A stretch of DNA of 64,000 nucleotides. Origin: Aromatoleum petrolei (lineage in GTDB: Bacteria > Pseudomonadota > Gammaproteobacteria > Burkholderiales > Rhodocyclaceae). The position numbers and the translations under genes were made by a program. Where the stretch lies: NCBI RefSeq assembly GCF_017894385.1, contig NZ_CP059560.1, positions 3,605,501 through 3,669,500 on the forward strand, read 5' to 3'. Position 1 is the stretch's first letter; each line of letters begins with the position of its first letter. Under the pieces are notes generated by a model. The model was given only the letters and a program-made list of their open reading frames with translations. It was not told the DNA's origin and searched no databases. Below, one piece after another: positions 31,864-56,906 of the stretch.

Positions 31864-32018
31864 GGCGTGTGTTCTGACGTTTTTCTGACACTGCCATCGG
31901 TGACCGGGTGCGCACGACTGCGGTTGAACGGAATTTTTTTCGTTCGAAGCGCGTTTGTGCATGTTGGCGACCGTCGTGTTGACCTATACGCATGCTCCAT
32001 CGACTTGAGGAGTTGCAG

Positions 32019-37291: not shown

Positions 37292-39409
37292 TCAACCCGT
37301 CTGCAGCAGCAGCGCTCCTCGCTTCGCCCGCGTCAGCGCCACGTAAAGCAGCTTGCGCTTCGCCTCGCTCTCCTCGACCGCGCCGAGGTAGCTGCTCGGC
37401 GTGACGACAATAACGCAGTCGAATTCCAGCCCCTTCGCGCGATGCATGGTGGCGAGGTGAATGACCTCGCGAGCATCGGTGTGGTTGCTTTGCGCGCTTA
37501 TCGTCACGCAGGCCAAACCGGCAGCCTGCAGTTGTCGGGCGAGGGTGTCGCGACTCTTCTCGCTGTGCCCGACCACACAGAAGGACAACGCTCCATCCCC
37601 CTGGCTGGAGCGCCAGTCGCGAATGAAGGCGACGGCGTCCGTTGCAGCCTCTTCGATGCCTGCCACCTGCTTCACTTGCGGGGCGGGGCCGTGCGAGAGG
37701 GACTTGTAGCGGCGTGTCTCGTCATGACCGTCGTCGAGGTCATCAATCTCGCATCCCTCGAGTAGCGCAACGGCCTGGCGCCGGATTTCGTCGGTTGTTC
37801 GGTAGTTGAGGTACAGCTTGCGCGAGCGACCGCGAATGTCGATGCCGCATCGGCTCATTGCCGCCCGGTTCCGGCTGTAGATACGCTGGTGACCGTCGCC
37901 CACGAAGAAGAGGTCGTTCTGTCCGGGCGCGACCATTGCGCGGAGGAGCCTCAGCGCCTGCGGGCCGAAGTCCTGGGTTTCGTCAGCAATAATGGATACG
38001 TAGGGAAGGCCGGCGCGGCCCTCGGTCGCGATAATCTCGGCGACCTCGCGGTAGGCGTCATCGACTTCCTTGAGCTTGCGCGAGGCGAGCTGCCCTCGGT
38101 ATTCCTCGAACACCGGCCACACCGCATCGCGTTTTGCGCGGCTGAGGAGCACCCCGCGGCCCGTCCGACGTGCCGTCCGGTACTGGTCGAGCGTCGTGAT
38201 GCCCTGCGCGAGGATGACCTGTTCCAGTTCTTGTTCATAGAAGGAGTCTGGCAGGTCGAGCGAAGTGTCCTTCATGGTCAGCGCCGACAGCCAAGCCTGC
38301 AGCGGAGCATCCTGCTTCCGGTCATAGACGATTCGATGCTCGAACTTGCGGCCGCGGATGAAGGCGCTCACCCAAGCATCGAGGTTCCTGACCTCGATTC
38401 GCCCCATCGTCTCTGCGCTGCACAGAGTGCGGAGGTTTTCTTCGATGTCCAGAGCAAGGTTTTTGGTGAAGGTCGTGAAGAGGACCTTCTGGTCTTCTGC
38501 GGTCCGGTTTTCGGCCAGCCACTTCGCACGGTGCATCGCGAGCACCGTTTTGCCCGTGCCCGCTCCGCCCAGTACGCGTACCGGACCACTGCGGTCGCCG
38601 ACCGCGAGCTTCTTCTGCGTTGGGTGCAGGAAGACGCGCCACTGCGCGAGCGGCGCATTCATGATGGCCAGCATGGCGTCATCGTCATCGACGACGACGA
38701 AGCGCGACTGAGATTCGGCCGTGGTGAGGGCGGTCGCGAAATCACTGGTGTCGATGGTCTGGTCGACACGCGTTTCGCGGCTCTGGAGCACCTGACCAAC
38801 GGTGTCGCCGGCCGCCACCAGGAAAAGACCTTCGTAGGCTTCGGTGGGAAGGAGCGGTTGAATTGCGTCGAGTCCTTCCTCCGTGCGCACGCCCCTGACG
38901 TTGGGGATGAGCTCCTGTGGTACGCCGAGGCTCATGAGCTCGGTGTCCGTGAGGTTGCCATAGAGCGGCGTGACCTCCCCGCCGCCCGGCGTTGCGGCAC
39001 CTGCTTGGATGTCCGCGGCCCTCGTTTCGTCGGACGAGGCAGACGGCGCCACAGGCTCGACAACCTGTTCGAATGTCACGAGCTGCATCGCGCCGGTGAC
39101 CGGGTTGATGCTGAGCTTCCGGTTTTCCGCCCAGCGATACGCGTCGTCATGGTGTGCGACATAGAGCAGGACGTAGACGTCGCCGGCTTCGGGCTTGAAC
39201 ACAATCCCACGCCAATCACGGTCGAGCCGGACCGATTTCAGGTTGGCGTCGCGTGCGCCGTTGATGTTCTCGTAGTTGATGCCGGGGCTGCGTGGGTCAG
39301 CCTGGAACTGGATGGCCCACTTCATTACCTTCGAGTGCACGGCGGCGGGCAGCTTCGACAGCTGGAGCAAGAAATCCTGTGCCAGTGCGACCTTGGGTTT
39401 CAGTTGCAT
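37292..39409 (-). CDS. RelE/ParE-like domain fused to UvrD/Rep-type helicase
   Basis: A 705-aa protein, ATG 39409 after AAGGAAA, overlapping the previous gene by 10 nt. Residues 1 to about 110 follow the RelE/ParE toxin fold pattern, ending LLYVAHHDDAYRWAENR. A linker of ~150 residues leads to a superfamily 1 helicase: Walker A GGAGTGKT near 283, Walker B IIADETQD near 473, GDGHQRIYSR, LNYRTTDEIR, TMHRAKGLEFD and ALTRAKRG. The helicase motifs are complete. The RelE-like part lacks an antitoxin neighbour and may bind ribosomes or DNA, or be a nuclease or inert adaptor. Last gene of the defence operon. Confidence 0.85.
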   Translation of the reverse strand: MQLKPKVALAQDFLLQLSKLPAAVHSKVMKWAIQFQADPRSPGINYENINGARDANLKSVRLDRDWRGIVFKPEAGDVYVLLYVAHHDDAYRWAENRKLSINPVTGAMQLVTFEQVVEPVAPSASSDETRAADIQAGAATPGGGEVTPLYGNLTDTELMSLGVPQELIPNVRGVRTEEGLDAIQPLLPTEAYEGLFLVAAGDTVGQVLQSRETRVDQTIDTSDFATALTTAESQSRFVVVDDDDAMLAIMNAPLAQWRVFLHPTQKKLAVGDRSGPVRVLGGAGTGKTVLAMHRAKWLAENRTAEDQKVLFTTFTKNLALDIEENLRTLCSAETMGRIEVRNLDAWVSAFIRGRKFEHRIVYDRKQDAPLQAWLSALTMKDTSLDLPDSFYEQELEQVILAQGITTLDQYRTARRTGRGVLLSRAKRDAVWPVFEEYRGQLASRKLKEVDDAYREVAEIIATEGRAGLPYVSIIADETQDFGPQALRLLRAMVAPGQNDLFFVGDGHQRIYSRNRAAMSRCGIDIRGRSRKLYLNYRTTDEIRRQAVALLEGCEIDDLDDGHDETRRYKSLSHGPAPQVKQVAGIEEAATDAVAFIRDWRSSQGDGALSFCVVGHSEKSRDTLARQLQAAGLACVTISAQSNHTDAREVIHLATMHRAKGLEFDCVIVVTPSSYLGAVEESEAKRKLLYVALTRAKRGALLLQTG

Positions 39410-42400
39410 ACGGTTTCCTTATCTTCCACGGGCAAGCCGAGTTTCTTCCCGACCACTGCAGCCCATTGCTCGTCGTCGATGAGCGCGAGGTCCTCGGTCA
39501 GGACAAGCACCTGCCATCCAGCGGCACCCCACACGGCGGCCAGGTCTGCCTGGTCGTCGCGCAGGACCACAAGTTTTTCCGTTGGCCAAGCGAGTTCCGC
39601 ATCGGCGATGACTTGGCCTTTCTCGTCAGGCAACTCCAGGCCGACCTCCGGCACTTCGGCTCCTGCGGTCGCGAGCAGCTTCAGGCCTTCGCGCAGTCCC
39701 GTCAGCGTCTGTTCGAGCACGGTCTGCCATATGGCGAGCGTTGCGTCCTGGCCAGGCGGTGTCGCGGAGGTCGCCTTGTCCTCCTCACCGACCGCCAGTG
39801 CCTCATAGTCCCTGGCGTCGAGACCGGCCCCCGTCACCATCAGCATCCCTGGCAAGAACTGCGCGGCGTTGTAGAGGTGTAACCAGCGCCGCCACGCGCG
39901 GTGCAGGGTTTCCGCGTCCTGCGCAAGCCCTTCGTCGAGCACTACGATGCCCGGCGCCGACCAGGCGGCGGAGGGAGGTTGAGGCTTTGCCCACGCCAAT
40001 GGCCACCAGCCCAGCATCGTGCACGGGTTCTCTCCGCGGGCGAGCATTGGCGCGGCACCGGCCGGTGCGGCACGAAGGGCTTCCGGCAGACGTGGCTGCC
40101 AAGTTGCCAGCGCGCTCGCGCACGCCGTCCTGTCCTGTTCGGTCGAAGGAATCATCAAGAAACCCAGCCACAGCGCATTTCGCTGCAACACGGGGAGCCC
40201 TGCATCATTCCCCGAGGAGTCACTGCCGAGTGCGAGCCAGTGCAGAAGGCGCGCAACGGCGTGTTGCGTGAACGCCTTCTCCTGAGCACGATGCACGTGG
40301 GGTGGAGCCTTCGTTCCGTCGTGACGTCCCAAGGCCGCGAGGGGGGATTCGAGGTCACACTCCAGACTACCCTCGAGTGCCGCCTTCACGTCATGGTGCG
40401 TCACCGACCAGACCCACAGGTTTCCGCCCGCCACGATAGCGCTTCGCTTCAACGCATCGGCCCGAACGCAGTTCTGATGGTCGGCCCATCCGTCGCAGAA
40501 GACGGCAATCGGCTTGCGCTTCGACGTGACGGACCACGGCCATATCACGAAATCGGGTTTGCTCCAGACGCTGAGGTCAAAAAGTTTGCCGATTTCGCAT
40601 TGCACCTCGATGCGATACCGCTGAGTTCCGACTTCCATTACCCAACCGGACTTGCCATTCACCACGTCCTGAATGAGCTTGACCGGCGGAAGCCCGCCGA
40701 CGCCTCCGAGCTTCGGAAGGCTCTCGATGAAACGTGCCTCCAGCACTGAGTCGAAGTTCGGGTTGATGTAGATGTCCGCAATCGTCTCGACCTTTTCGAG
40801 GTGGTCGAGCGACCCGACCAGGTCGCCGAGAACCGCTCTGGCGTTGTCCCGCGAGACCAGTTCCATGCTGCGGCCGAGCCGGTACTGATAGAGGCAGCGA
40901 TAGCAGCCATCCTTTTCGGGGTCGGCATTGCACGAGCACGTGTTGATAGCCTCGAGCGCCATGCGGAGCACATCGGCGAGGGTGCCCGCATCGTGCGCCA
41001 GCAGCTGATGCAGGTAGCCTGTCCCGCCGGGCACCGAGTCGTAAAGCATGACGTAATGCTTGCGCGGGCCGCCGTTGGTGCCAGGCTGGTCCTGCAACAC
41101 CATCCGCAGGTGGTCGACCTTGCCGCCGAAGCGTCGTTTCAGGCCCAGCTGCAGGGCAGCCATAAAGGACTGAACGACGCGTTCATCGACCCCATTCTTC
41201 GTGTAGGGAACGAGGATACGCAGCGCCTCGGACTCGAACTCCCGGTAGAGATAGAGGCACTCCAGCAGGTTCGACGGGTCGTTGTCCCCGTGCTTCGGAC
41301 AGTCGAAGCTATGGCTCTGCTCGGGCGCTTCTGCGCTGCGCTTGGGTGGTTTCTGCACCTTCCCGCAGTGCCGGCACAGACGAAAGCCCGGTCGTGAGGC
41401 TTCCTTGTCGGCGACCTTGAACGATTCACCGGGCTTGGCCAGCTCGCCGAAATTCACGTCCCTGAACGTCACTCGCGAGATGAACTCGAAGCCGAAAGGC
41501 AGGCCACCCGACCCAATCTGCCAGGCCTCGCGCACGTTCTTCGGTTCGAAGTCGGCCATGAGTTGTCGGACGTAATACTTCGGCTCTCTGTCCTCGGTGC
41601 TGTCGTCGATGCGGACTTTGGTGTCGTCGCTGTTTGCAATCGCCTGTCGGAAGCGGAGCAAACTGCGTTTCTGCGCCGCATCCGCCCACATGGCATCCCC
41701 GCAGCGCGGGCACGTTGGATGGACGTCCGCCTCGATGGTGAGGTTCTGCATGTGGTGGCAACCGGGGCAGAAGCGCCAGTCCTCGGTCTTCGCCAGGTTC
41801 ATGTTGATTTGGTCGACCTCGACCCGGCGCTGATTGGCGTAGAAGCGGTTTTCAGGCGCGAACTCGGACAGCGCCGATTGCGCAGGACGTTCGTACTTCA
41901 GCGCGTTGAGCGTGACATACGCGCCCTGGCCGGGCTCGTCGGTGCCGCGCTTGCGCCACAGCACCGACTTGAGCTGCACGCCCGCTTCCGGAAATGCATA
42001 GTTCGGGATGAGGCCGGAATCGGTCAGCATGCCCAGAAGGTCGCGTGCGTTGATTTCCTTGATGAGCTCGATGAACTTGTCGCGCTCACGCTGCAGGCTG
42101 TCGATTTCTGCCTCGGTGGCGCCGTCCTTGGGCTTCGTTTTAAGCTGCTTGATGGCCTTCTCGAGTTCGTCCTTGCGCTTCTTGTAGGCGCGCCGCTCCT
42201 CAAGCAACTCCTCCAACGCCTTCATCAGTCGCGTGCGCAGCCCATCGGCGTCGCCCTGACCCTGCATGTAATCGAGCAGGCGGCTACGGACCACGTCGTC
42301 CACGTCGCCGTCCAGAAGCTGCATGAAGGCGCTGTAAAGGCGCTCCTCATTGACCAACACGTAATCGCTGAAGATGTATGGGAACCGGTCCTTCTTGTTG

Positions 42401-45400: not shown

Positions 45401-45816
45401 GCCAGCGCGTTCATCGGATAGATGACCAGTGCCTTGATACCCGCTGCACCTGCCTTTCGGGCCCGTGCGCAATGGTCGAGTACCGGATAAAGGAAGCACT
45501 CGGTTTTGCCGCTGCCCGTGCCTGTGGCGACCAAGGTACTCGCGGCGAGGTGTAGGCTTGAGAGACGGTTCCATGCCTGCTCCTGGTGGCTGTATCCCGG
45601 AAACTCCGTCTGAAAACCCGCGAAGAAATCCCGGCTCGCCGCCCCCGGCACGAAGGGCAGGCCGATTTGCACGTACGGGCCTTTGAGCCACGCACCGGGG
45701 TCCGCGACGAAGCGGCTCATCAGCCCGTGCATGAAGGGGTCGGCCGGCTCATAGGCCGCGACCAGGAACTGCTCCAGGGCGGTTTGGATGTCTCTCGCGA
45801 GCAGTGACGGAAGCAT
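39400..45816 (-). CDS. Giant DUF1998 superfamily 2 helicase with nuclease-like C-terminus
   Basis: A 2138-aa protein. The first RecA domain has Walker A ATGTGSGKT near residue 98, DELH near 232 and SAT near 270. The second has LLSATPTLEMGVDIG near 1015 and QRVGRAGR near 1060. Several zinc-type Cys pairs occur (CSQC, CVACG, CPACG, CPGC/CPRC near 1350, CRHC), and a DUF1998/MrfA-like Cys cluster (CSCNADPEKDGCYRC) near 1640. Beyond it, KPDFVIWPW and IAVFCDGWADHQ near 1750-1775 resemble Vsr/PD-(D/E)XK-type nuclease cores. Size and layout resemble Druantia DruE or a fusion of DISARM DrmA and DrmB. The last ~300 residues are unassigned. Confidence 0.85.
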   Translation of the reverse strand: MLPSLLARDIQTALEQFLVAAYEPADPFMHGLMSRFVADPGAWLKGPYVQIGLPFVPGAASRDFFAGFQTEFPGYSHQEQAWNRLSSLHLAASTLVATGTGSGKTECFLYPVLDHCARARKAGAAGIKALVIYPMNALATDQARRIAQLVAGVPAFAGLRVGLYVGGNGSAPGDGMVMTPTSVITDRETMRKHPPDILLTNYKMLDYLMLRPKDRELWASNAPTTLRYVVVDELHTFDGAQGTDLALLLRRLRARLKIDSEHLICAGTSATLGGSSDSTPLREYARQVFGVPFEPASVITENRQAVDVFLGDATVDYMFAFRPEWAACLEPSQYASPAEAVTAWFELFFPDEPAPADPNASEWRHELGELLKRHQLFVNLLKLLKGSVASYRNLADAFSRYMPSGTGEQVRQVLDALLVLVAWALRDGKQPLVTLRVQLWVRELRRMVGKLNTDPTEVRLRSERDLPGERDGVYLPMVQCSQCRTTGWISRLVPGSSKLSTQLEEIYNTWFSRRPEAARFYAATSFKRSQVAGMREHVCVACGNTQQGTGPCIACGHQELLDAFRVTAQQSHVVGQAHFTLHDQTCPACGERGELLLLGARNATLGSQVVETSWASVFNDDKKLIAFSDSVQDAAHRAGFFGARTYANNARTAWAHVIDELGYTQLPWSRFLEEVEKRFDTPGSILHMPPEQLVSEFLGPNMAWQHDWAIELLQKQHLPSASKLPTRVKKRLMWQAFSDLTYLSQRGRTLERIGKAVLAVPWGRVSELAAELLPTLREQFGAQGLEHVTVSQWLWGILTHMRQRGGVMHPELGNYAADGNIYALAKTGGRGEWLPPMGENTPRPVFVTLGAHRDFDKLQGATRPSWYERWTTAVLGQQALLAKGMTTELAATATALLVARGVLLKTSHHHGDTLALNPDELMLFTQVAFVATEGNKRRLAVPREDAEQLLRMPCLDALDVHYEALIPEAAEWWARRFSRGDLRRVIAAEHTGLLERSVREALEVRFKNKNPKPWFENLLSATPTLEMGVDIGDLSSVLLCSVPPNQASFLQRVGRAGRRDGNAMTTTLADGNSPHDLYFFAETEEMIAGDVAPPGVFLRATEVLRRQLFAFCMDDWVASLSNPSALPEKTSQALDSLDANKKDRFPYIFSDYVLVNEERLYSAFMQLLDGDVDDVVRSRLLDYMQGQGDADGLRTRLMKALEELLEERRAYKKRKDELEKAIKQLKTKPKDGATEAEIDSLQRERDKFIELIKEINARDLLGMLTDSGLIPNYAFPEAGVQLKSVLWRKRGTDEPGQGAYVTLNALKYERPAQSALSEFAPENRFYANQRRVEVDQINMNLAKTEDWRFCPGCHHMQNLTIEADVHPTCPRCGDAMWADAAQKRSLLRFRQAIANSDDTKVRIDDSTEDREPKYYVRQLMADFEPKNVREAWQIGSGGLPFGFEFISRVTFRDVNFGELAKPGESFKVADKEASRPGFRLCRHCGKVQKPPKRSAEAPEQSHSFDCPKHGDNDPSNLLECLYLYREFESEALRILVPYTKNGVDERVVQSFMAALQLGLKRRFGGKVDHLRMVLQDQPGTNGGPRKHYVMLYDSVPGGTGYLHQLLAHDAGTLADVLRMALEAINTCSCNADPEKDGCYRCLYQYRLGRSMELVSRDNARAVLGDLVGSLDHLEKVETIADIYINPNFDSVLEARFIESLPKLGGVGGLPPVKLIQDVVNGKSGWVMEVGTQRYRIEVQCEIGKLFDLSVWSKPDFVIWPWSVTSKRKPIAVFCDGWADHQNCVRADALKRSAIVAGGNLWVWSVTHHDVKAALEGSLECDLESPLAALGRHDGTKAPPHVHRAQEKAFTQHAVARLLHWLALGSDSSGNDAGLPVLQRNALWLGFLMIPSTEQDRTACASALATWQPRLPEALRAAPAGAAPMLARGENPCTMLGWWPLAWAKPQPPSAAWSAPGIVVLDEGLAQDAETLHRAWRRWLHLYNAAQFLPGMLMVTGAGLDARDYEALAVGEEDKATSATPPGQDATLAIWQTVLEQTLTGLREGLKLLATAGAEVPEVGLELPDEKGQVIADAELAWPTEKLVVLRDDQADLAAVWGAAGWQVLVLTEDLALIDDEQWAAVVGKKLGLPVEDKETVCN

Positions 45817-45853
45817 GGTTCAGATGACTGTGATTTGAAAGGGCAAAGACTGA

Positions 45854-47617
45854 TTACGGCTTCTTCAGGGGCCAGCGCGTTACCATGGCATTCGCCAAAC
45901 GCTGCGACCGGTCGTTGACTTTTGCCTTGTTGAATTTCTGATTGCCTGCGCAGCTGGCGGCGACCGCCTTCACTGCGCTCAGGCTGGACCTCATGTACTG
46001 GGCCATCTTGCTTTCGACCGTGTTGTTCTTGCAGGCGCTATTGATGCTGCCTTCAAGCAACATGAGGTTTCCCAGACGGTGGTTGTGCTGCAGGTAGTCT
46101 GCCTCGTCGTTGAATCCGTAGCCGGCGATGCTGAAACTGTTATCTGCATCCTGCGGGAGAATGTGCTCCACCGTGAGGCCGTTCTGATTGAGCGCGGCCA
46201 ACTCCGCCAGACCCAACTCGGAAGTGCCGACAACGACGCGTGCCTGTGCTTCTTCTTGCAGCAGCATTCGTTGCAGAGCCGGATTGCGATACATACCCTC
46301 GTCCATCAGGCGAGACGCCATCATCGCGTCTGGCATGCCCCAGACGCAGAAATTCTGCAGTTCCTGAATAATCCAGTCGATGGAGTGCTGATGCAGGTCT
46401 CGGGTAATCCGGTAGATGTCCGCCTGGGGATTGGTGCCGCGGAGCTTGAATACGCGCAGGTCTGTAAGCTCGATGATTTCCATCAGTGAACGCTGGTCGG
46501 CGGTGCCGCATTGGTTCAGCCAGCCATTGCGATGGAGCCGTATCAAGAGTGGATAGAGTGTGGCCGAAAGGTCCTGTATCACCCACAGCAGGTACGACGC
46601 CATATCCGTTCTTGTCGTCTGTACGAGTGCTTCCAGGCTTGCAAAGAACTGCGTGAGGTCAGTTGTGTATGCGGTGATGAAGGTGCTCAACTTGTTGCTG
46701 TCGCTGCGCAGGTTCTTCAGCGCTGGCTTCAGGAAGGTCTCCAGCACGGTTTCGGACGTCGCCCAGTAGTCGCCACCGCCGGAAACCCCGAAGGGGGCTG
46801 CGTTGAACGCGAGGTAGTGATAGCGCAGGACATCGTCCTCGCGGAACGTGTCACGGTCGATTTGCCGGATTTTGTATCCCGATTCTCCGCCCATTCGCTT
46901 AATACGACTGAAACTCCGGAAAGCTTTCCCGAACTCTTCAGAAATGAACGTGTCGAGTATGCCGCCAAGATAGCGGTTCGAATAATAGACCAGCAGACTT
47001 TTCACGATGTCCATCTTGGCGAGAGGCACCCCCCGGTCGTTGACCGACTGGAACATGCGGATTGCCTTGCCTTCGTCCTGCTCGATGAACTTCAGTACTT
47101 CCATTTTGCTGATGCACTGCAGCCAGTTTTTCACCAACTGCTGTCCGCCGTTTGTGACAAGGGCGGCAACGCGCTGCCGTATCCAGGAATATGCCTTCCG
47201 CAATCTGTACTGCCCGTCGGATACAGGGGCCGGGTTCTTTTCACTGAGCAAATCGCGAAAAAACACCTCGTTTTCGCCCAGAACGCGGAATTTCGCCCCA
47301 TCAACGGGATTTTGAATGAAGAGGTTGCGGTAGTGATTCTGTAGCTCAGTGTCCTCGACCACATCAATCAGTGAATCGAGCAGCATCGTCAGTGTGGTCA
47401 ATCGCTGCTGGCCGTCGACCACGTGCACCGGGTCGTTCTTGTCTACCTGGGATAAGATAAAGGTGCCCAGATAGTGACTGCTGTTGCCCTCGAGGGCCTC
47501 CTCAATGTCGTTAAAGAGGTCATCCACGTTCATTTCACGCCAGGCATAGTCGCGCTGGTAGCTGGGAATGACGAAGGTTCTGCCAGTGAAGAAAATCTGG
47601 ATGGTCTCGGGGCTCAC
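45854..47617 (-). CDS. DUF262/DUF1524 protein (GmrSD-like)
   Basis: A 587-aa protein with GTG start at 47617. The N-terminal DUF262 (ParB/sulfiredoxin-like) has IPSYQRDYAW at 17-26 and VVDGQQRLTTL at 66-76, the nucleotide-binding DGQQR motif. A helical middle contains FQSVNDRGVPLAKMDIVKSL. The C-terminal DUF1524 HNH-type nuclease has TVEHILPQD near 482 and HRLGNLMLLEGSIN near 515. GmrSD proteins are type IV restriction enzymes that cut modified DNA using NTP. Here the protein sits inside a helicase-methyltransferase operon, 14 nt after the 72-aa gene and 37 nt before the large helicase. Confidence 0.88.
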   Translation of the reverse strand: MSPETIQIFFTGRTFVIPSYQRDYAWREMNVDDLFNDIEEALEGNSSHYLGTFILSQVDKNDPVHVVDGQQRLTTLTMLLDSLIDVVEDTELQNHYRNLFIQNPVDGAKFRVLGENEVFFRDLLSEKNPAPVSDGQYRLRKAYSWIRQRVAALVTNGGQQLVKNWLQCISKMEVLKFIEQDEGKAIRMFQSVNDRGVPLAKMDIVKSLLVYYSNRYLGGILDTFISEEFGKAFRSFSRIKRMGGESGYKIRQIDRDTFREDDVLRYHYLAFNAAPFGVSGGGDYWATSETVLETFLKPALKNLRSDSNKLSTFITAYTTDLTQFFASLEALVQTTRTDMASYLLWVIQDLSATLYPLLIRLHRNGWLNQCGTADQRSLMEIIELTDLRVFKLRGTNPQADIYRITRDLHQHSIDWIIQELQNFCVWGMPDAMMASRLMDEGMYRNPALQRMLLQEEAQARVVVGTSELGLAELAALNQNGLTVEHILPQDADNSFSIAGYGFNDEADYLQHNHRLGNLMLLEGSINSACKNNTVESKMAQYMRSSLSAVKAVAASCAGNQKFNKAKVNDRSQRLANAMVTRWPLKKP

Positions 47618-47631
47618 GGACGTTGTTTTCC

Positions 47632-47850
47632 TTATTGCATCTGGTCGTTCAATTGAGTGGAACCATCACCTGCGCGCGCGCTTGGATACCGTTCTTGGAC
47701 GCCAGCCGAGCAAGTGCTCGACCTGCGCCAGGCGTCATTCAATAATTGCCGCTCCCCCTCGGCTTGCACGCCCCGACGCAAGTCATCCAGTGGGTACCAG
47801 CTGTTGTCCTGTTCCTCTTCCGATAAGGGGGCGAAAAAGTTGTCGGTCAT
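47632..47850 (-). CDS. Small 72-aa hypothetical protein
   Basis: Starts 7 nt after the DUF3883 gene stop, with AGGGA just before the ATG, and ends 14 nt before the DUF262 gene, so it fits the operon frame tightly. The sequence starts MTDNFFAPLSEEEQDNSWYP and is hydrophilic with no recognised motif. It may be a small adaptor. Coding status rests on position and ribosome binding site only. Confidence 0.5.
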   Translation of the reverse strand: MTDNFFAPLSEEEQDNSWYPLDDLRRGVQAEGERQLLNDAWRRSSTCSAGVQERYPSARAGDGSTQLNDQMQ

Positions 47851-47857
47851 TCCCTGG

Positions 47858-48808
47858 CTAGTCCTGGTTATCGAAAACCCGGTTGGAAACCCGCCAGACC
47901 ACCGGCGTCAGGTCCTCTTCCTTGATGTGATTCACAGGGTCATTGAGTCTGGCGACGATATTTCCATCGCCCTTGCCGTCTATCGTGACCCGATAAAGCC
48001 ATGCCCGCGGGCCTAGACCGCCGAGAACGGCACGCTCGTTCGCGGTCAGGAAGAAGTCGCTCCCTGCAAGTGTCGAGGTCTTCACTTCAATGGAACGCTC
48101 CTCGCCGGGCCAAGTCGATTCAACGTCATATCCCCGGGCCACGTCGGTCTCGGCAACGCGCCTGACGTAGTCGTCAGGTCTGGCGCACCCGCAACCGCGA
48201 AGTCGTTCCAATTCGTCGAGAATGACCAGCATCTCACCCGCTCGGCCGGTTTCACTCTGGCGGGAGAGCAATGCTGCAAAGTCTTCTTCGGAAATTTCGC
48301 GCTTGTTGGCGCCGGCGGTTTCATTTTGAGGCCTGTTCGAATTCGCGCCCGCAGCGGTCTGCATGGACTCACGTCTTCCGCCTTCGCCAAAAAATGCGGC
48401 TAGCACAAACTCCACATCATCGGGTTCAAGCGACAGCATCAGGACTTCGTTCATCGAAGATGGTCCCAGATAAGGCGAATGCAGAACGCTGTTTGCCGGT
48501 TGACCATCCCGCGGATAGACCTTGGTGACCTTGTCCGCCGGGATGAGGTCTCGCAGGCGCTTCCCGTCGCAGGTCTGGTCGCGAATGTAGAGCGTGGTGT
48601 TCTCTTTGTTCATCCGGGCCCCGATTTCTGCATTGCCATATCGTGGCAATTTGAATATCCACGTCGGAGCCGTACTGGTGTGACCCGAGTCGTGGTAATC
48701 GGTGGCTCCGTATTGCTCGTCGAGCAACCGAATGGTTTTCATGACACCGGAGGCTACGGGGTAGCCGAGGTCGGACAGGGAGCGTTTGCTTTTCTCGATT
48801 GTTCTCAT
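47858..48808 (-). CDS. DUF3883-domain protein (nuclease-like fold)
   Basis: A 316-aa protein. I chose ATG 48808 because it overlaps the methyltransferase stop (ATGA). The N-terminal ~150 residues are unassigned; a disordered Asn/Gln/Gly linker follows. The C-terminal ~120 residues match DUF3883: GRAGEMLVI, GYDVESTWPGEERSIEVKTS, DFFLTANERAVL. The IEVK with an upstream Glu and Asp fits a PD-(D/E)XK-like nuclease core. DUF3883 is often found with defence helicases and in DISARM-like loci. It could be the nicking or cleavage component of this operon (inference). Confidence 0.8.
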   Translation of the reverse strand: MRTIEKSKRSLSDLGYPVASGVMKTIRLLDEQYGATDYHDSGHTSTAPTWIFKLPRYGNAEIGARMNKENTTLYIRDQTCDGKRLRDLIPADKVTKVYPRDGQPANSVLHSPYLGPSSMNEVLMLSLEPDDVEFVLAAFFGEGGRRESMQTAAGANSNRPQNETAGANKREISEEDFAALLSRQSETGRAGEMLVILDELERLRGCGCARPDDYVRRVAETDVARGYDVESTWPGEERSIEVKTSTLAGSDFFLTANERAVLGGLGPRAWLYRVTIDGKGDGNIVARLNDPVNHIKEEDLTPVVWRVSNRVFDNQD

Positions 48809-51800
48809 GCGTTCTTCTCGAAGAATGCCCACGCGATGCGGTAGTCCTCTTCACGGTTGGCGCGGGCGAAGGGGGCTGTGTAAGTGCGTTCGACGGTGCG
48901 GGGGCCGCCGGGGAGGGTGTCGTCGGTGACCCATTGGGTGATGGCGGTGCCGTCAGGGACCTTGGGGGTGCCGCCTCGCGTCAAGATGGATTCGTCCTCG
49001 CCTTCGGCGGGGTAGGACCACAGGTCGTCCCAGCCGAAGTTGCCTTCGCGCGCCTTGCCGTCCGGGGTGACGATGCGAGTTTTCGGTGTGCTGCGGCTGC
49101 CCTTGCGCGGTAGGCCGACGCCGACTAGGCCTTTGCTGTTGGTGAAGACGATGCGGCCCTTGATGTCGTACCAGGTGTCGCGCTCGTAGCCTTGCATCAC
49201 CGGGAACTGCACGCGGTAGATGAGCAGCAACTCTTCCAGCGTCAGGCCGAGGGCTTGGGCCACCAGCACGTCGATTTCCACCAGCACCATGCGACGTGCG
49301 TAGTCGCTGCGCAGCGCACAATTGCGGCTCCAGGTGCTGGTGAGGTTTTGCCAGAATTCCTGGTGCAAGCGCAGGTTGGCGGGCTGGCTCCAATGCTGGT
49401 CGGCGAAGTCGAGGTCGAAAAGCTCTTCCCATAGAGGAGCGTAGTGCACCGTTAGGCAGGAGAGCACCAACGCTCGGCAAATCACTCTCTCTGAACCATG
49501 GTCGTCGCGTATTACGAGGACTGAATCTGCGGTCTCACCCCAAAAGTTGACCTTACCCGTTGTCTTGACAAAAAAATCTGCGACGAGCGAAGTCCACGTC
49601 CCAATTGTCAAGAGCAAATTGCGCCTGTCCGCGAAAGCGACGGATAGTGCACCGTCAATGTGTGCAGCCCCAGGCGGAATAATGGCGGGCGATAGAGTGC
49701 GCTCAGAGGCAGGGCCAATCATCTTTCTCGTGATTAGTCTGAAATAGTCCGTGCTCCGCTTTTTGAGCTGCTTCCCTTCATCTTCCCAGTAGACCGTGCG
49801 AACTCGCGAAAAATATTCTGTTGTGTTCTTGGATGGCCAGTAGTTTGTCCGCGGGAGATAATCGTCAGGTAAAGTGACAAGGTCGATTACATCATAATGA
49901 CCATTTGCAGTGCATACCCTTCTCGGGGATTTATAGAAGGGATTCGCAACGTGGAAATGAGGCCCGGAAAACACTATCTCTGTAGTGTCTAAAGGAAAGC
50001 GGGAATCGTTCGGAATTCGTCGATTAATTGTGCCGTCCCGCTGCTGCCGTGACTCATGCCACATTTCACTGCACATGTGATGCTCGGCGAAATCGCCTAG
50101 ACGCCGGGGCCAGGCAGCGAGTTTCCGCATTACGCTGCCCAATGCGCCGGCGTGCAGGGCGGGAAGGCGAGCTCGTATTGGTGTCGTTCCGGACTCGTCG
50201 TAGAGTCGTGCGAAGGTACTCAGTAGCGCGGTTTCGACGCGCACGATGCGGTCGCGGTGGCCGGCGGCGTTCCATTTTCCGGCTTCGTCCTTGTAGCCGC
50301 CGACCACGCCCGTTCCGTCATGCTGATAGCAGGCATCGACCGTGCTTGGGGAAAACAGATTTGAAAGATGGTCGAAGGCAGGGGCGGTGCGGTGGGGGCC
50401 GTAGATGTTCACACTGTATTTGGTGTGGTGGTCCACCTCGGCAAACAACTGCAGTTCATTCACAAATCCGAAATGCCGCCGCAACCGCGCATACACGGCC
50501 TCTCGCAGCGTTCCGCCTTTCGGGTCGTCATACGGCCCTTCGGGATGTAGCAGGCCGGTCACCCCTTGTGCGCTGTTCAGATTCCAGGCGAGCGGCATGA
50601 AGCACTTGTACAGATTGGTCTGCACGCCCTTCAAGAGCGGATAGTTTTGCACCGCATTGAGGAAGTTCTGCGTGCCCTCCGCTTCCTGGAACTCGCCAGA
50701 CCACGCCGCCTGTAGGCCGGGGAAGTCTGAAAACGCCTGTGTCCGCAGGTTAGCCAAGTTGCTTGCACTAACTTTGCGAATCGCAAACACCGGGTTCTTC
50801 TCACCCAGAATGCCGGCCTCGTTCCACTCCACCTTGAGCCAGGGCGGGTTCCCCAGAATCAGGTCGAAGCCGCCGCGGGCGAGCAGCACATCCGAAAAAC
50901 ACAGCTCCCAGTGCAGGAAGCGCTGTGCGACCGCGACCGCGTCTACCTGCTCGATGCGTGGAAATTGCTGCCGTAGCTTGCTGATGCGCAATTGTCCGAA
51001 CTTATCGTGCAGCTTCTTCTGTTCCGGCGATTTCGCAAGTGTCATCTGCCTCTCGAAGCCCACCAAGCTGCCCTGCACTTCGGGAACAAGGACCTGCGGG
51101 GCTTCGGGCGCGGTGGGCTGCAGGTCCAAGCTCGTTTGTGGGGCGAGGTCGACGATGTTGCCTTCCAGAATGGCGCCGACTTCCATCCACCATTCCTCCC
51201 GGCTTGGGAGATGGCTACTGGCAGTTATGGGCCAGAACCACAGGGCGCACCAGTAATCCATCACCAGCTTCAGGCGACGGAATGGTGTGGCGAGGTCGCC
51301 GTCCTCGTTGAGGAGTCCTTGGCGGCGGATGGCCTCCTTTTGCGCCCGGCTGATGGCTCCGCCGTTCTCGTCCTTGGCGGGCTTGTTGGGCCAGACGGCG
51401 AGAACGTCCTCGGTGCGCTCGCGGTCGCGCGCCAGCGCTTCCGTATGCTCCTTCCAAAGGTCCTCTGCGCTTTGGCTGAGCTGCTGCAGGCGCGCTATTT
51501 CGTGGGGGGCGAGTGGCGCTGTGAATGACTTGCGCCAGGTCTTGAGGCGCTCGAAGTCGTTCGGGTAAAGCGTCTTGGCCGTCTTGTCCGTGTAGTTAGC
51601 CATGCCCGGGTCAGGCAGCAGGAAGTGCCAAATTTCGTCCGCCTTCCGCGGTTCGCTCTTGGTGACGCGGCGCGGCGGTTCTTCATGCCACGTTGGTTTG
51701 GCGCCTTTCTTCAGCGATGCGGCGTTGTAGACCTGATGGCGGGCGCCGATGAGGCTGTTGCCGGCGAAGAGCTGATAACCGAACCAAGGCACACGGGCGG

Positions 51801-53955
51801 GTAACGGACGACCCAGAGCATCGGTGACCGGCTCGCCGTCTTCGTCGAGTTCGCCGTAGATGGCGTTGAGCCACAGGGAAACCTCCGCCAGTTCTACCGC
51901 TACCGGGTTGAGGTCTACGCCGAACACGTTGCGGTCGGCGAGATACATGCGCACCTTCTGCAGTTCCTGTGGGTAGGGTTTGTGCGCGATGCGGCGGCCC
52001 AGCTCCTGCTGCTTGCGCTCAAGATAGGCTTCGGCGAGCTGGTTGACCGCCTCGTTCAGGAACGCGGCGCTGCCCATGGCGGGCTCGCAGACGGTGAGGG
52101 TGAGGATGTCGTCTGCCTTCTTTACCCGGTCGCTATCCAGGAGCTCCTTCAGCGCGTACTTCACGAGGCACTGCGTGAGCACCTGCGGCGTGTAATAGCT
52201 GGCGCTCTTCTGCCTGTCGCGCCCGGCCAAGCGGTAGATAAAGCTGCCCTTGGGATAGACGCGCAGCTTGGTGTGCCCCGACTCGGTGACGTCGTAGACG
52301 CGCTCGTCCTCGGTGTACTCGCTCAGACGGCTGGCAGGGACGAACCACGCTGTGTCGAGCTTGTCGGCATCGGATGCGTTACCGGCGCGCTGACGCCGTC
52401 CGTTGGCCGACGAGTCCTCGCCAGCGTCGTCGCCGTCCTCGCCGCTTTCCTCGTCGTCCCCGCTGTCTTCGGCGGCGGCATGGCCTTTCTTGGGCGCCGG
52501 CTTGACCTCATAAAGGTCGTCCGAGGCAAAGAATCCGCGGTAGCTCAGCAGCGCCTCGTACACCGCGCCCAACTGGTTGATGGACAGCAGCTGGTAGCTG
52601 ACCCGACCGCTACGCCGGCCGCGGCCCTGTCCGCGAGTGAGGGACATCAGGCGGATGACGGTCTGCCAGACGTGATTCGGGAAGCGGACCTTACCGAGCA
52701 GCGGTAGTGTGCTGTCGTCGAAAAGGCGGCTATCTAGTGGGGCGAGGGCAAAGGTCTCCTTGGCTCCGGCGATAGTGTCGCCCAACTGGTGCTGGGTTGC
52801 GCTGTCGAGGCCGGTTCCATTGGCGACGAGCTTGAAGAGGCGGCGAAGGGTGGCGTCAAAGTAGAAGCCGTTGCGTGAGTGCGGGGTGCTCAGCGGCTGA
52901 ATCTCGAGGTCGCGCAGGCTCTCCAGGCTGTAGCCCTTGAGGTAGACCTCGCTCTTGTCGATGGGCACGTAACCCAGCTCGGGCCGCGCCTCGATATAGA
53001 ACATGAAGAGCAGCCGGTAGACGAGGCGCAAGCACTCGAGGCTGAGGTCTGCAGCGTCGAGCTGGTCCTTGCCGCTGAATATGCCTTTCTTTGCCTCGGA
53101 AGCCTGCTCGCGGAGCTGCCTCGCGGCTTCGTTGCCCAGCAACTCGATGGCTTCGCGCAGCGCGTACTTGAGGTCTTCGCTGACGCCGAAGGCGTGCTTG
53201 TGGGCGTTCTCGTCGAGGCTTTCGAGCAGGCTGTTGCCCTCGCCCGGGGCGAGACAGTCCTTGTGCAGCAGGGCGGCACAGGCCTTCAGCGTGTCGGCGT
53301 CCTTGCGGTCCAGGATGTCCGCCCAGTCGAAGCGCAGCGCCCGATTGTTGGGCCACTTGTAGCGGTCGAGTAGCAGCCACTCGTCCAGGCCGGCGAGCAG
53401 GACGTAGCGCGGAGGTGTCTCGGCACCGAAGACGGCATCGGAGAGAAGGTCGGCCCAGATTTCGTTCTGGAGTGCCGGCGGGATGGCTTCGCCGTTGAGG
53501 TGCAGGCTGAGCAGCTTGTGGTCGAGCAGGTCCTCGGTCTCGGCTCCCGGCTGGTACGCGGGGATGATGGCGAGCCGAGGAAGTTGCAGCTGCCAGAAGG
53601 GAATGGGCAGTCCGGGCACCAGTTCGTGGCTGCTGGGGCGCTTGTCGGGCGCGGCGTAACTCAGTGCCTGCAGTAGGCCCGCCTGGATTTGCGTAAAGAC
53701 TTGCCACCGTTCTGCGGCGTCGCCCGCTCGCTGCAGCTGGCTGCGCAGGCTGAACCACTTCTGCGCCCAGGCCTGCAGCCGCTTGTAGGGTGCGCGATGG
53801 TTATCGTCACCCGGGTGGGCGGCCTCAGCCGCTTCCCAAGCATCGAGGCGGGCCTTGATGTCGCCCTTGAACACCTCCGCCAGGTAGTGATGACTGTAGA
53901 ACTCGTTTTCGTTGGCGATGCCGGCGAACGTTTGAACGGCGTCAAGAACAGGCAT
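48805..53955 (-). CDS. Large adenine-type DNA methyltransferase (DrmMI/PglX/Eco57I-like)
   Basis: A 1716-aa protein whose ATG lies 2 nt after the SNF2 gene, with GGAG upstream. The N-terminal ~600 residues are helical and include a strongly acidic linker at about 495-520. The methyltransferase core begins with SYYTPQVLTQCLV and the S-adenosylmethionine motif CEPAMGSAAF near 623, where the usual GSGxF reads GSAAF. The catalytic motif is NPPW near 1031, typical of N6-adenine enzymes. A long C-terminal region probably recognises the target. The neighbourhood (SNF2 helicase upstream) matches class 1 DISARM drmD-drmMI order. It probably marks self DNA. Confidence 0.87.
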   Translation of the reverse strand: MPVLDAVQTFAGIANENEFYSHHYLAEVFKGDIKARLDAWEAAEAAHPGDDNHRAPYKRLQAWAQKWFSLRSQLQRAGDAAERWQVFTQIQAGLLQALSYAAPDKRPSSHELVPGLPIPFWQLQLPRLAIIPAYQPGAETEDLLDHKLLSLHLNGEAIPPALQNEIWADLLSDAVFGAETPPRYVLLAGLDEWLLLDRYKWPNNRALRFDWADILDRKDADTLKACAALLHKDCLAPGEGNSLLESLDENAHKHAFGVSEDLKYALREAIELLGNEAARQLREQASEAKKGIFSGKDQLDAADLSLECLRLVYRLLFMFYIEARPELGYVPIDKSEVYLKGYSLESLRDLEIQPLSTPHSRNGFYFDATLRRLFKLVANGTGLDSATQHQLGDTIAGAKETFALAPLDSRLFDDSTLPLLGKVRFPNHVWQTVIRLMSLTRGQGRGRRSGRVSYQLLSINQLGAVYEALLSYRGFFASDDLYEVKPAPKKGHAAAEDSGDDEESGEDGDDAGEDSSANGRRQRAGNASDADKLDTAWFVPASRLSEYTEDERVYDVTESGHTKLRVYPKGSFIYRLAGRDRQKSASYYTPQVLTQCLVKYALKELLDSDRVKKADDILTLTVCEPAMGSAAFLNEAVNQLAEAYLERKQQELGRRIAHKPYPQELQKVRMYLADRNVFGVDLNPVAVELAEVSLWLNAIYGELDEDGEPVTDALGRPLPARVPWFGYQLFAGNSLIGARHQVYNAASLKKGAKPTWHEEPPRRVTKSEPRKADEIWHFLLPDPGMANYTDKTAKTLYPNDFERLKTWRKSFTAPLAPHEIARLQQLSQSAEDLWKEHTEALARDRERTEDVLAVWPNKPAKDENGGAISRAQKEAIRRQGLLNEDGDLATPFRRLKLVMDYWCALWFWPITASSHLPSREEWWMEVGAILEGNIVDLAPQTSLDLQPTAPEAPQVLVPEVQGSLVGFERQMTLAKSPEQKKLHDKFGQLRISKLRQQFPRIEQVDAVAVAQRFLHWELCFSDVLLARGGFDLILGNPPWLKVEWNEAGILGEKNPVFAIRKVSASNLANLRTQAFSDFPGLQAAWSGEFQEAEGTQNFLNAVQNYPLLKGVQTNLYKCFMPLAWNLNSAQGVTGLLHPEGPYDDPKGGTLREAVYARLRRHFGFVNELQLFAEVDHHTKYSVNIYGPHRTAPAFDHLSNLFSPSTVDACYQHDGTGVVGGYKDEAGKWNAAGHRDRIVRVETALLSTFARLYDESGTTPIRARLPALHAGALGSVMRKLAAWPRRLGDFAEHHMCSEMWHESRQQRDGTINRRIPNDSRFPLDTTEIVFSGPHFHVANPFYKSPRRVCTANGHYDVIDLVTLPDDYLPRTNYWPSKNTTEYFSRVRTVYWEDEGKQLKKRSTDYFRLITRKMIGPASERTLSPAIIPPGAAHIDGALSVAFADRRNLLLTIGTWTSLVADFFVKTTGKVNFWGETADSVLVIRDDHGSERVICRALVLSCLTVHYAPLWEELFDLDFADQHWSQPANLRLHQEFWQNLTSTWSRNCALRSDYARRMVLVEIDVLVAQALGLTLEELLLIYRVQFPVMQGYERDTWYDIKGRIVFTNSKGLVGVGLPRKGSRSTPKTRIVTPDGKAREGNFGWDDLWSYPAEGEDESILTRGGTPKVPDGTAITQWVTDDTLPGGPRTVERTYTAPFARANREEDYRIAWAFFEKNA

Positions 53956-53957
53956 GG

Positions 53958-56906
53958 TCAGGCTCCGGCGGCAGCGGCGACGTTGGGGTGACAGACGCCG
54001 GCGAGAACCTGAATCCAGGGCTGCGGCTCGGTAGTCAGCGTGTCTTCCACCCAGCGGCGGTAGTCGTCGAATACGCGGTGTATGTGCTGGCTGCGCTGCT
54101 CGAAGCGGCCACGTTTCACCGTTTCGAGCTGTTTGTCGAGGTCGAGGCTTAGCTGCTCGATTTGCCGCCCTTGGAGGCGTTTCAGGTCGGCCAGGGTGTT
54201 GGCGAGGCGCTCTTCCAGCTGGGCAGAAAAGGCAGACTGCTGTGTGAGCATGTGGGAGTGCATCGTGCGCACGGCGTCGGGCAGAGCGCTTTGCATCATT
54301 TCTGTCGTCGCCGCCAGTTCAGGGGTTTGCCCGCGGTTCGGCAGCCCGCCGGCCTTGAGGCCCGCACGCGCGACGAAGGCGTCGAAAGATTCCAGGGTGA
54401 ATGCGCCTTGGCCCACGCGGCAGGCGACCTGCCATTCGACCAGCAGGGGCTGGCCCTTGCGGTTCGGGATGAGGCTCATCAGGACGAAGGCCTGCTCGCC
54501 CGACTGCAGCTTCGGGCTTTGGAGGAGCGGAGCCCGATGCCGGCCGAAATGGGTCAGCACGCGGTCGCCCAGCCATTCCATGATGGGGTGCTGCGGCCAG
54601 AGGTAGTGCAGCTTCGGCCAGGTGTCCTGTTCGGCACGAGCTTGCCGTGCGGATTCGATGGCGTGAGCCATGCGCTCGGGGCTGGCACACAGGGCGTAAT
54701 GGTCGTTGTCGGCTTGGGCCTCGCGCGGGAGCTGTCGCAGGCGCTCCTGGAGGTCCAGCGGTGCGGTCAGCGCGATAACGTTCTCTGCATCCTCGGCCAC
54801 CCACTGGCACAGGGTGTGGCCTTGGTTGAGATGGGTGAGGGCAGTCTTCGCGTAATGGAAGTCGCTGTCGAACAGCGATGCAGGCTCCGCGATGTGGGCG
54901 AGGCTGTTGCGTGCTTCCGGCCCGCAGTTCGTCTCGTCGGTGGCGGTGTCGGTGCCGAACAGCTCCATGAGCCAGTCACCGCCGTTGTCGGTGCCGGACG
55001 TAGCCGCCTCGTCCATGGCGGCTTCGACCTGTTCCGCGGTCAAGCCTTCGGCCATGTAGTCGGCGACCTTCTCGGCCTCCTTGTCCGGGTCGTACACATT
55101 GAGGAAAGCCGAGGGGTCGCCCAAGTTCAAGTTGGCCTGGTCGTCCTTGCGCTCGAGGATTTCCAGGATGCGTAGGTCGCCCTTGATTTTGTTGGTTACG
55201 GCCTCGGTGAAGAGATAGACGATTTGAGGCTGATGCTTCTGCCCGTAGCGGTCCACGCGGCCGTTGCGCTGCTGGAACACCATCAGCGACCACGGGAGGT
55301 CGAAGTGCACGAGGCGGTGGCAGAAGAAGTGGAGGTTAAGGCCCTCGCTCGCCACATCGGAGCAGAGCAGGATGCGCAGGGGGTCATCGAGGCGACCAAA
55401 TCGCTCGACCAGTTCCTGTTGCTCGGTGTCGGCCATCTGCCCGTGCAGCACCTCGATTTGGTTCGCCTTGAGCTTGAGGTCATCGGTGAGGTGCGCGCGC
55501 AGCCAACGCAGGGTTTCGATGCGCTCCGAGAAGATGACCAAGCGGTCGGCGGCATCGTTGAGCTGCCAGCCGAACTCTGATGACTTCAGGTGCTGCTTAA
55601 GGCGTTGATACTTGCTGAAATGCTCCGCTGTCGGGTCGGTGGCGAGCGGCGTCAAGGTGTCCTCGAAGTGCCGCAGGCAGTCGACTTCGGTCGCTTCCTC
55701 TGGGGTAGGGCTGCTCTTGCCCTGAAGCAACGTAATCCGTTTGCGAGTGGATTCCAGTGCCGCAGCCGGGCTCGAGAACAAGGCCTTCTGCATTGCGACG
55801 CGCTGCAGTTCCTGTTGCTTACCGGCCTTGTGCTGGCCTCCCTGCGTAAAGGGAATCTCGAGCAAGGTTCGATAGGCCGCCTCTTCCTGAGCCGTCGCGG
55901 GAGTGCGAAGGCAGGCCGTCACCCGTTCCTGGAAGTCCGCGCTGACCTGCTCGCGGATGTCCTTCTTGAAGCGCCGGATGACTAGTCCCTTACTGCGGAA
56001 ATCGTCCGGTGTGTAGTCGTCGGGGTCGGAAATGGCCGTCGGGTCGAGCAGGCTCATCAGTGACGCAAAGCTGCGCGCCGAACCGTCGTGCGGAGTGGCA
56101 GAAAGCAGCATGAGCGTGTCGGAACGTGTGGCCAGCAGCTTGGCCAGGCGGGCACGGCGGGAAAGACCGGTCTCGCCAGCGCGCGCGGCAACGTTGTGGC
56201 ATTCGTCGATGACGATGATGTCCCACCAGGCGTTCTCGAGGTAGTTGCGGTACTCGAGGTTGCTCTTCAATGTGTCGATGGAAATGATGCTGCGGTCGAA
56301 GTAGTTGAAGGGGTTGTGGTTCGCCGGAATGCGATTGCGCACCCGGGCAAGGCCGACCGAATCCAGCCGCACGAGCGGGATGGAGAAGCGGCTCCACCAC
56401 TCCTTCTGAAACTGGGTCAGCATGGCCTTCTGAGTGACCACCAGGATGCGCTTGCCGCGGCCGCGCTGAATCAGCTCGGTGGCGAGAACGCCCGCTTCGA
56501 GCGTCTTGCCCAAGCCGACGGCGTCCGCAATCAGGATGCGCGAACGCGGCTGGCGCAAGGCCTGTAGGGCCGGGTCGAGCTGGTAGGGGACCAGATTCAT
56601 CACCCCCCGATGGCCGAGATGGACCTTGTCGTCGTTAGGGACGTTGCGGCGACGCAGGCTCTCCAGATAGAGGATGCTTGCGTTGTAGGCCGGAGTCGTG
56701 TCCGGCACGAGTTCCGTTTTCTCAGGGTTGAGGACGGAAATCTTGTCTTCCAGTTCGGTCAGGAACAGCGCGGACTGGCTCCGGACCAGTTCCGAAATGC
56801 CGTCACAGGTGACAAGCCAACCGCCATCGGTGGCGGGGTCGATACGTCGAACAAGCCATTCTTCGTCGCGGATAACGACGCGGGCGCCGGGGGCGAAAGG
56901 GAGCAT
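53958..56906 (-). CDS. SNF2/Swi2-type helicase (DrmD-like)
   Basis: A 982-aa protein. The superfamily 2 motifs are ADAVGLGKT (128-135), VIDECH (234-237), LSATPHDG (269-274) and QQRNGRVDRYGQKHQ near 550. The HepA/RapA-like N-terminus (LVPYQLDPALQAL) and length near 1000 fit DrmD of class 1 DISARM. The C-terminal ~300 residues have a coiled coil (about 880-940) that may mediate contacts. First gene of the operon; its promoter is expected in 56907-57294. The ribosome binding site is weak. Confidence 0.87.
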   Translation of the reverse strand: MLPFAPGARVVIRDEEWLVRRIDPATDGGWLVTCDGISELVRSQSALFLTELEDKISVLNPEKTELVPDTTPAYNASILYLESLRRRNVPNDDKVHLGHRGVMNLVPYQLDPALQALRQPRSRILIADAVGLGKTLEAGVLATELIQRGRGKRILVVTQKAMLTQFQKEWWSRFSIPLVRLDSVGLARVRNRIPANHNPFNYFDRSIISIDTLKSNLEYRNYLENAWWDIIVIDECHNVAARAGETGLSRRARLAKLLATRSDTLMLLSATPHDGSARSFASLMSLLDPTAISDPDDYTPDDFRSKGLVIRRFKKDIREQVSADFQERVTACLRTPATAQEEAAYRTLLEIPFTQGGQHKAGKQQELQRVAMQKALFSSPAAALESTRKRITLLQGKSSPTPEEATEVDCLRHFEDTLTPLATDPTAEHFSKYQRLKQHLKSSEFGWQLNDAADRLVIFSERIETLRWLRAHLTDDLKLKANQIEVLHGQMADTEQQELVERFGRLDDPLRILLCSDVASEGLNLHFFCHRLVHFDLPWSLMVFQQRNGRVDRYGQKHQPQIVYLFTEAVTNKIKGDLRILEILERKDDQANLNLGDPSAFLNVYDPDKEAEKVADYMAEGLTAEQVEAAMDEAATSGTDNGGDWLMELFGTDTATDETNCGPEARNSLAHIAEPASLFDSDFHYAKTALTHLNQGHTLCQWVAEDAENVIALTAPLDLQERLRQLPREAQADNDHYALCASPERMAHAIESARQARAEQDTWPKLHYLWPQHPIMEWLGDRVLTHFGRHRAPLLQSPKLQSGEQAFVLMSLIPNRKGQPLLVEWQVACRVGQGAFTLESFDAFVARAGLKAGGLPNRGQTPELAATTEMMQSALPDAVRTMHSHMLTQQSAFSAQLEERLANTLADLKRLQGRQIEQLSLDLDKQLETVKRGRFEQRSQHIHRVFDDYRRWVEDTLTTEPQPWIQVLAGVCHPNVAAAAGA

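Follow-up and report, generated by a model that had tools for sequence, protein, structure and literature searches.

A probable cargo slot for second defence modules within an ARMADA type II operon of Aromatoleum petrolei

Which defence system is encoded by a long run of Aromatoleum petrolei genes that resembles several known systems at once, and do all of these genes belong to it? The run lies in the window, by which we mean the whole 64,000-nt stretch of DNA analysed here (contig NZ_CP059560.1 of assembly GCF_017894385.1, positions 3,605,501 to 3,669,500), placed in a 5.4-Mb single-contig genome. The minus strand of positions 37292-56906 contains large open frames of 982, 1716, 324, 587, 2138 and 705 aa together with a frame of 72 aa. 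The initial annotation took them for a seven-gene defence system, either a DISARM variant or a separate class. The features of the locus and its surroundings are, in coordinates of the window:

53958..56906, minus strand: armA, BrxHII/DrmD-like SNF2 helicase, 982 aa (Pfam, NCBIfam, pairwise identity to E. coli ArmA)
48805..53955, minus strand: armB, PglX-like (type IIG-like) DNA methyltransferase, 1716 aa (Eco57I domain, PADLOC IIG model, pairwise identity)
47858..48808, minus strand: cargo gene 1, DUF3883 protein, 316 aa from ATG 48808 (324 aa from GTG 48832)
47632..47850, minus strand: 72-aa frame, most likely relic of a gene of ~240-276 aa (DNA alignment to locus L006)
45854..47617, minus strand: cargo gene 2, putative endonuclease of the GmrSD family (DUF262 + DUF1524), 587 aa (Pfam, PADLOC)
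39400..45816, minus strand: armC, YprA-family helicase with DUF1998/MZB and a putative Vsr-like C-terminal region, 2138 aa (Pfam, pairwise identity)
37292..39409, minus strand: armD, UvrD/GajB-like helicase with a putative RelE-like N-terminal region, 705 aa (Pfam, pairwise identity)
45817..48804, minus strand: probable armB-armC cargo slot, 2,988 nt (GC 0.56 against 0.62 in the flanks)
31768..31812, plus strand: attL-like 45-bp direct repeat, the 3' part of tRNA-Phe (sequence repeat)
31855..33546, plus strand: tyrosine integrase adjoining tRNA-Phe (Phage_integrase, 67.5 bits)

The genes are packed tightly. By their coordinates, armA and armB are 2 nt apart. The DUF3883 gene overlaps armB by 28 nt when read from the GTG and by 4 nt (ATGA) when read from the ATG at 48808, which is a likelier start than GTG 48832. 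Gaps of 7 nt and 14 nt flank the 72-aa frame on its DUF3883 and GmrSD sides, 37 nt separate the GmrSD gene from armC, and armC overlaps armD by 10 nt. Open frames, strand and spacing are as the initial annotation described them; its count of seven genes is not, the 72-aa frame being most likely a relic. In order of transcription, the domains are SNF2/DrmD-like, Eco57I/N6-MTase, NOV_C (DUF3883), the 72-aa frame, GmrSD_N with GmrSD_C, DEAD with Helicase_C and MZB (DUF1998), and UvrD. Pfam supports SNF2 and Helicase_C in armA, Eco57I in armB (872.6 bits with the PADLOC IIG model), DEAD, Helicase_C and MZB in armC, UvrD domains in armD, and likewise the DUF3883 and DUF262/DUF1524 assignments. The three helicases counted earlier are thus present in armA (SNF2), armC (DEAD/DUF1998) and armD (UvrD).

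Judged by sequence, the four core genes belong to ARMADA type II, a class already published (Bell et al. 2025, PMC12458937). As the text of that paper describes it, the type II system consists of ArmA, a BrxHII-like helicase; ArmB, a PglX-like methyltransferase; ArmC, a YprA helicase with a Vsr-like nuclease; and ArmD, a RelE-GajB-like helicase. Its gene order is termed strict there, and the system was active in E. coli when tested. E. coli ATCC 8739 is among the strains assayed by these authors, who mutated K136/D236 of ArmA, G605/N971 of ArmB, K110/D234 of ArmC and K266/D454 of ArmD and described only a partial requirement for ArmB G605 and ArmD D454 (PMC12458937). All eight residue letters are present at the published numbers in the ATCC 8739 proteins, and pairwise alignment finds all eight kept in the window. 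Window armA is 46.6% identical to its E. coli counterpart over nearly full length (K134 and D234 conserved), armB 46.9% over nearly full length (G628, and N1036 of the NPPW motif), armC 35.8% over 2165 columns (K104, D232) and armD 40.9% over nearly full length (K287, D476). The PD...DG..H stretch of armC, aligned and conserved with E. coli ArmC, might be read as the Vsr site. DruE of ATCC 8739 aligns with armC in three short segments only. Because of the full-length E. coli matches, the conserved mutated residues and the mere short segments with DruE, we assign the core to ARMADA II and not to DISARM or Druantia. The putative RelE-like N-terminus of armD had no RelE match in Pfam; it is suggested by full-length similarity to E. 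coli ArmD and by the description of Bell et al. (PMC12458937).

Core order in the window (BrxHII-like helicase, PglX-like methyltransferase, YprA helicase, GajB-like helicase) is the ARMADA type II order. Unlike in the canonical arrangement, armC does not directly follow armB, since 2,988 nt with the DUF3883 gene, the relic and the GmrSD gene intervene. We therefore class the operon as ARMADA II with an insertion, the core order being kept. When gene neighbourhoods were compared, the four core genes were found to travel together and the three middle genes were not. The earlier view of a defence locus that combines DISARM-like with Druantia-like parts was correct, and so was its separation from DISARM, though the class was already in print. 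The profile searches proposed at that stage do match DrmD, DrmMI, DruE and GmrSD models (PADLOC-DB of 2023, NCBIfam protein models).

The operon appears to ride on a mobile element. A perfect second copy of the 45-bp repeat lies outside the window, at genome positions 3676133-3676177 (70633-70677 in window coordinates), where there is no second tRNA. The repeat pair and the adjoining integrase imply that the operon is carried on a ~38.9-kb element integrated at tRNA-Phe. An E. coli ARMADA island has the same target gene (PMC12458937, Figure 5 legend). Several further features accompany the element. By eye, frames near the far copy resemble a WYL regulator and a CD-NTase-type nucleotidyltransferase. 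Beside the operon, 34920-36947 encodes a protein of 675 aa that matches XerC-type recombinases weakly (34.7 bits, cut-off 335). Upstream of armA, 57295-58629 and 60585-61598 encode a TrfA-like protein (21.8 bits, Pfam cut-off 22) and an OST-HTH/LOTUS-domain protein, parts of the element that may come from a plasmid. The stretch at 58709-59518 contains two direct repeats of 166 nt (78% identical) and three repeats of 32 nt.

How often, then, is the armB-armC junction occupied elsewhere? Loci were collected by scanning genome contigs for an ArmB motif (17 loci), by genome searches, and from four plasmids and an E. coli chromosome. With a loose cut-off of 1e-3, 78 of 395 genomes of the window's family match, most of them weakly and partially. 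At 1e-150, matches were obtained in 5 of 399 genomes of the order sample, 5 of 369 of the class and 6 of 398 of the phylum, each including the window's own genome, and in 6 of 299 genomes of a second family. Weak or partial matches were excluded from the genome-search loci, L068 apart. L002 and L003 were dropped before counting (same contigs as L054 and L055), as were loci cut before armC: L007, L012-L015 and L018 of the motif scan, L068 (same contig as L015) and L073. Forty armB-armC loci remained: nine from the motif scan, 25 from genome searches, four plasmids, one E. coli chromosome and the window. They are not a random sample. Four plasmid records were included out of 250 that match ArmB, and one E. 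coli genome out of 518. The armA-armB set, also of 40, differs in that L068 and L073 are in and L011 and L080 are out. The armC-armD junction was measured in 13 loci; elsewhere the end of ArmC is cut off or too divergent.

The armB-armC junction is loaded in 29 of 40 loci, with 763-14,320 nt, and empty in the other 11 (at most 56 nt, nothing between the genes). By comparison, armA-armB is loaded in one locus of 40 (L058), the other 39 having at most 92 nt, and armC-armD in none of the 13 loci with complete ArmC (at most 131 nt). The single armA-armB insert, in L058, measures 861 nt and holds a PIN-type frame at about 2484-3158 (armB on the plus strand). In Fisher tests, loading of armB-armC differs from that of armA-armB with p 2e-11 and from that of armC-armD with p 3e-6; both values treat related loci as independent and so ignore kinship. 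We consider it probable that the junction is a recurrent cargo slot with interchangeable modules, the core staying in place.

Use of the slot is lineage-biased and not universal: Betaproteobacteria and some others use it, the E. coli rows listed do not. Four of the 11 empty loci are enterobacterial and alike. The junction query matches 518 of 5426 E. coli genomes, and in 59 of the 60 rows listed out of these 518 the span equals the query within about 10 nt. The one exception is longer by about 1.3 kb and has an IS3 within the span. The row counts include 8 records with a second place or more, taken at row level.

Slot contents are diverse. Profile matches identify complete Zorya I in L017, complete QatABCD in L005 and Mokosh MkoA and MkoB in L002/L054. 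UvrD and AAA_11 helicases with TacA1 and GNAT occupy L003/L055. Further cargos are HEPN-SNF2 with sacsin (L011), two sacsin proteins with DUF3883 and a DrmD-like helicase (M056), similar but damaged genes (M062), a kinase (L063), PDC-M28 (L075), Schlafen-AlbA (L065), AAA_22 (L061), HNH proteins with weak Cas9-HNH matches (L058, L064), KAP with AbiEi-AbiEii (L101), DUF3883 with KAP and a DrmD-like helicase (L097), and Ham1 with SIR2 (L099). Seven cargos look toxin-antitoxin-like by eye from their translations (L004, L016, L057, L059, L060, L086, L087), and five lack an identity in whole or in part (L006, L009, L074, L098 and L100, the last with a DUF3883 gene); these twelve may be passengers. 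Three of the loci deserve a remark of their own. The L017 record is a MAG labelled Akkermansia muciniphila; its ArmB is 70% identical to that of the window, which suggests that it was misbinned or that the transfer is recent. M062 (L062 with L067; genome G100, of the window's genus) is a damaged ARMADA copy, with armB in several pieces and a 14.3 kb slot with sacsin-like fragments. In L101, armC matches occur in three pieces at 12401-19661, about 0.8 kb lying between the last two, and this armC copy may be interrupted.

In an all-against-all tblastx comparison, the 29 cargos form 14 groups with no detectable similarity between them, or 16 if the relic matches and a single 31-aa match are set aside. 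Shared genes link seven of the cargos, and one DUF3883 type is present in four of the 29 slots. The cargo is thus not random, and some of it may be tied to ARMADA.

Cargos change fast and the core is retained. L054 and L055 have ArmB proteins that are 89.7% identical and unrelated cargos (Mokosh versus UvrD+AAA_11+TacAT); L098 and L101 likewise carry different cargos at 88.7% ArmB identity. By contrast, L059 and L060 (82.2%) have a cargo in common. On the ArmB tree, outlying branches contain empty junctions, a pattern that would fit an empty ancestor with many gains; the empty junction of L008, within the loaded branch, would fit a loss. At the ten empty sites measured to the codon, armB and armC overlap by 1-4 nt in six and are spaced by 1-56 nt in four. 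No integrase or transposase match was found among the cargo proteins scanned; this agrees with exchange by recombination and does not show it.

The cargo of the window itself consists of a putative nuclease and a putative modification-dependent endonuclease. The DUF3883 protein probably carries a PD-(D/E)xK nuclease domain at residues ~184-309, the fold match being moderate. The second protein unites DUF262 and DUF1524 in one chain, with GmrSD_N at 120 bits and GmrSD_C at 52.6 bits, both over the Pfam cut-offs, and matches PADLOC HEC-06 at 5e-51. DGQQR and EH...N motifs are readable in this 587-aa GmrSD-family protein. Its closest plasmid relative (58.4%) lies on a plasmid of Sphaerotilus; the 25.8 kb examined there include no annotated ARMADA gene.

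Between these two genes lies the 72-aa frame. Its residues 2-41 align with the C-terminal part of proteins from L006 (276 aa, 52.5%) and L009 (240 aa, 47.5%), whose gene sits directly before armC; then the frame shifts. At the DNA level, it matches the 3' end of the 276-aa L006 gene with 68% over 176 nt and one 1-nt gap, and the last part of the L006-type protein is readable in a different frame of the window. A weak match (17 of 20) connects the region with the start of the L009 gene. The frame is thus most likely a truncated and frameshifted relic of a larger gene and not an intact one, the 5' part having gone either by truncation or by an internal deletion. A relic between the cargo genes suggests that the slot of the window probably held another cargo formerly.

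Our best explanation, which we regard as likely, is an ARMADA II operon, carried on a ~38.9-kb tRNA-Phe element, that holds another defence module at its armB-armC junction, a recurrently used slot. The uniform direction of the cargos and their GC, below that of the flanks in 28 of 29 slots, count in its favour. The two layers might work as follows. Core and cargo would be made from one transcript. Methylation by ArmB would mark self DNA, and the helicases ArmA, ArmC and ArmD with the Vsr-like nuclease of ArmC would attack unmarked phage DNA. Base-modifying phages that evade ARMADA would then meet GmrSD, which would cut modified DNA, perhaps together with the DUF3883 protein. As for exchange of cargos, our guess is that it might proceed by recombination in the conserved flanks that armB and armC provide. 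A more ambitious version, which we put forward tentatively, holds that armB-armC is a dedicated docking slot by which the operon captures, co-expresses and swaps entire second-layer systems (type IV restriction, Zorya, Qat, Mokosh, AbiE, SIR2) downstream of the methyltransferase that marks self, so that ARMADA and its cargo form a regulated two-layer immune unit.

The cargos might, alternatively, be chance insertions that are tolerated since they leave transcription unblocked, with no selection for defence. The seven toxin-antitoxin-like cargos and the five without identity would suit this idea, and so would base composition: GC is lower in the cargo than in the flanks in 28 of 29 slots, and this difference from the core indicates that cargos were acquired. 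Yet complete known defence systems recur in the slot, the ends of armB and armC are complete, and one junction out of three is used. Besides, all 29 cargos are co-directional with the operon in a coding-potential test (1690 against 129 sub-windows; 921 against 18 in the ArmD control). We find this alternative unlikely.

It is a shade more doubtful still that the DUF3883 and GmrSD genes are true parts of an extended six-gene ARMADA II, GmrSD being an effector that needs ARM proteins. The DUF3883 gene does overlap the armB stop (ATGA), and its relatives, 34-46% identical to the window protein (tblastn), are present in four of 29 loaded slots (window, M056, L097, L100). A GmrSD relative, however, was found by tblastn with the window's protein in one loaded slot of 29, the window's own (a very divergent GmrSD could be missed), and the best plasmid relative has no ARMADA gene beside it. 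Near relatives L054 and L055, with ArmB 78-79% identical to that of the window (79% for L054), lack both genes, and 11 of 40 junctions are empty. The same distribution speaks against the single seven-gene system of the initial annotation and for a four-gene ARMADA II core with inserted cargo. A class 1 DISARM variant without DrmC is highly improbable: armA does match DrmD models (327-347 bits) and armB DrmMI models (154 bits), but the DrmD equivalog cut-off of NCBIfam is not reached (346.7 against 610 bits), armC forms a single chain of 2138 aa, for which the best PADLOC models among the matches listed are DruE and not split DrmA and DrmB, Pfam scans of the operon proteins and of ten neighbouring or core proteins give no PLD domain (no DrmC, as was noted before), and similarity to ARMADA II is full-length.

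If the slot of the preferred ARMADA II reading is real and functional, then defence systems not only lie next to each other in islands but are also stacked within each other's operons, with one junction preferred. The contents of armB-armC junctions would provide a handle for new defence systems and a route to study co-regulated layered immunity. Caution is also needed in annotation, as PADLOC-DB 2.0.0 (of 2023) and NCBIfam protein models send the core, among the matches listed, to DrmD, DrmMI, type IIG and DruE and so label the locus as fragments of Druantia, DISARM, type IIG and single-gene GmrSD; ARMADA may be covered by newer releases.

Among known systems, class 1 DISARM shares with the window an SNF2 helicase, a PglX-like methyltransferase and a YprA-type helicase. 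The window differs by absence of DrmC, by presence of ArmD and by having DUF1998 and helicase in one armC chain instead of separate DrmA and DrmB. DruE of Druantia resembles armC as a YprA-family DUF1998 helicase with a C-terminal nuclease region (putative in armC), and DruE models reach 341 bits at best among the matches listed. In contrast to Druantia, no partner gene stands beside armC: none is among the PADLOC matches listed, and each other operon gene has another identity. ARMADA type II, as described in PMC12458937, has in common with the window the four proteins, their order and the eight mutated residues, and its E. coli examples also reside on tRNA-Phe-integrated elements; the window has the extra DUF3883 gene, relic and GmrSD gene between armB and armC. 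The main text of that paper contains none of the terms GmrSD, DUF262 and DUF3883, and the relevant passages of two later papers (PMC12904381, PMC13192584) treat ARMADA in passing only. A survey of BREX and BREX-related systems describes auxiliary or backup effectors and nucleases encoded in, or next to, the core loci of defence systems based on methylation, and the word ARMADA is absent from the text examined (PMC12839542). Our literature searches listed no report of an armB-armC cargo slot. A partial precedent is provided by plasmid pEFER, where, as its description states, brxU (GmrSD) sits between brxC and pglX and complements BREX (PMC8565348). Like in the window, a GmrSD enzyme is placed inside the operon of a PglX-methyltransferase system, and complementary protection was shown for pEFER; it differs in its BREX core, in the brxC/pglX position and in having one cargo and not a variable slot (PMC8565348). 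Measured against these systems, the core of the operon is known and its loaded slot is new.
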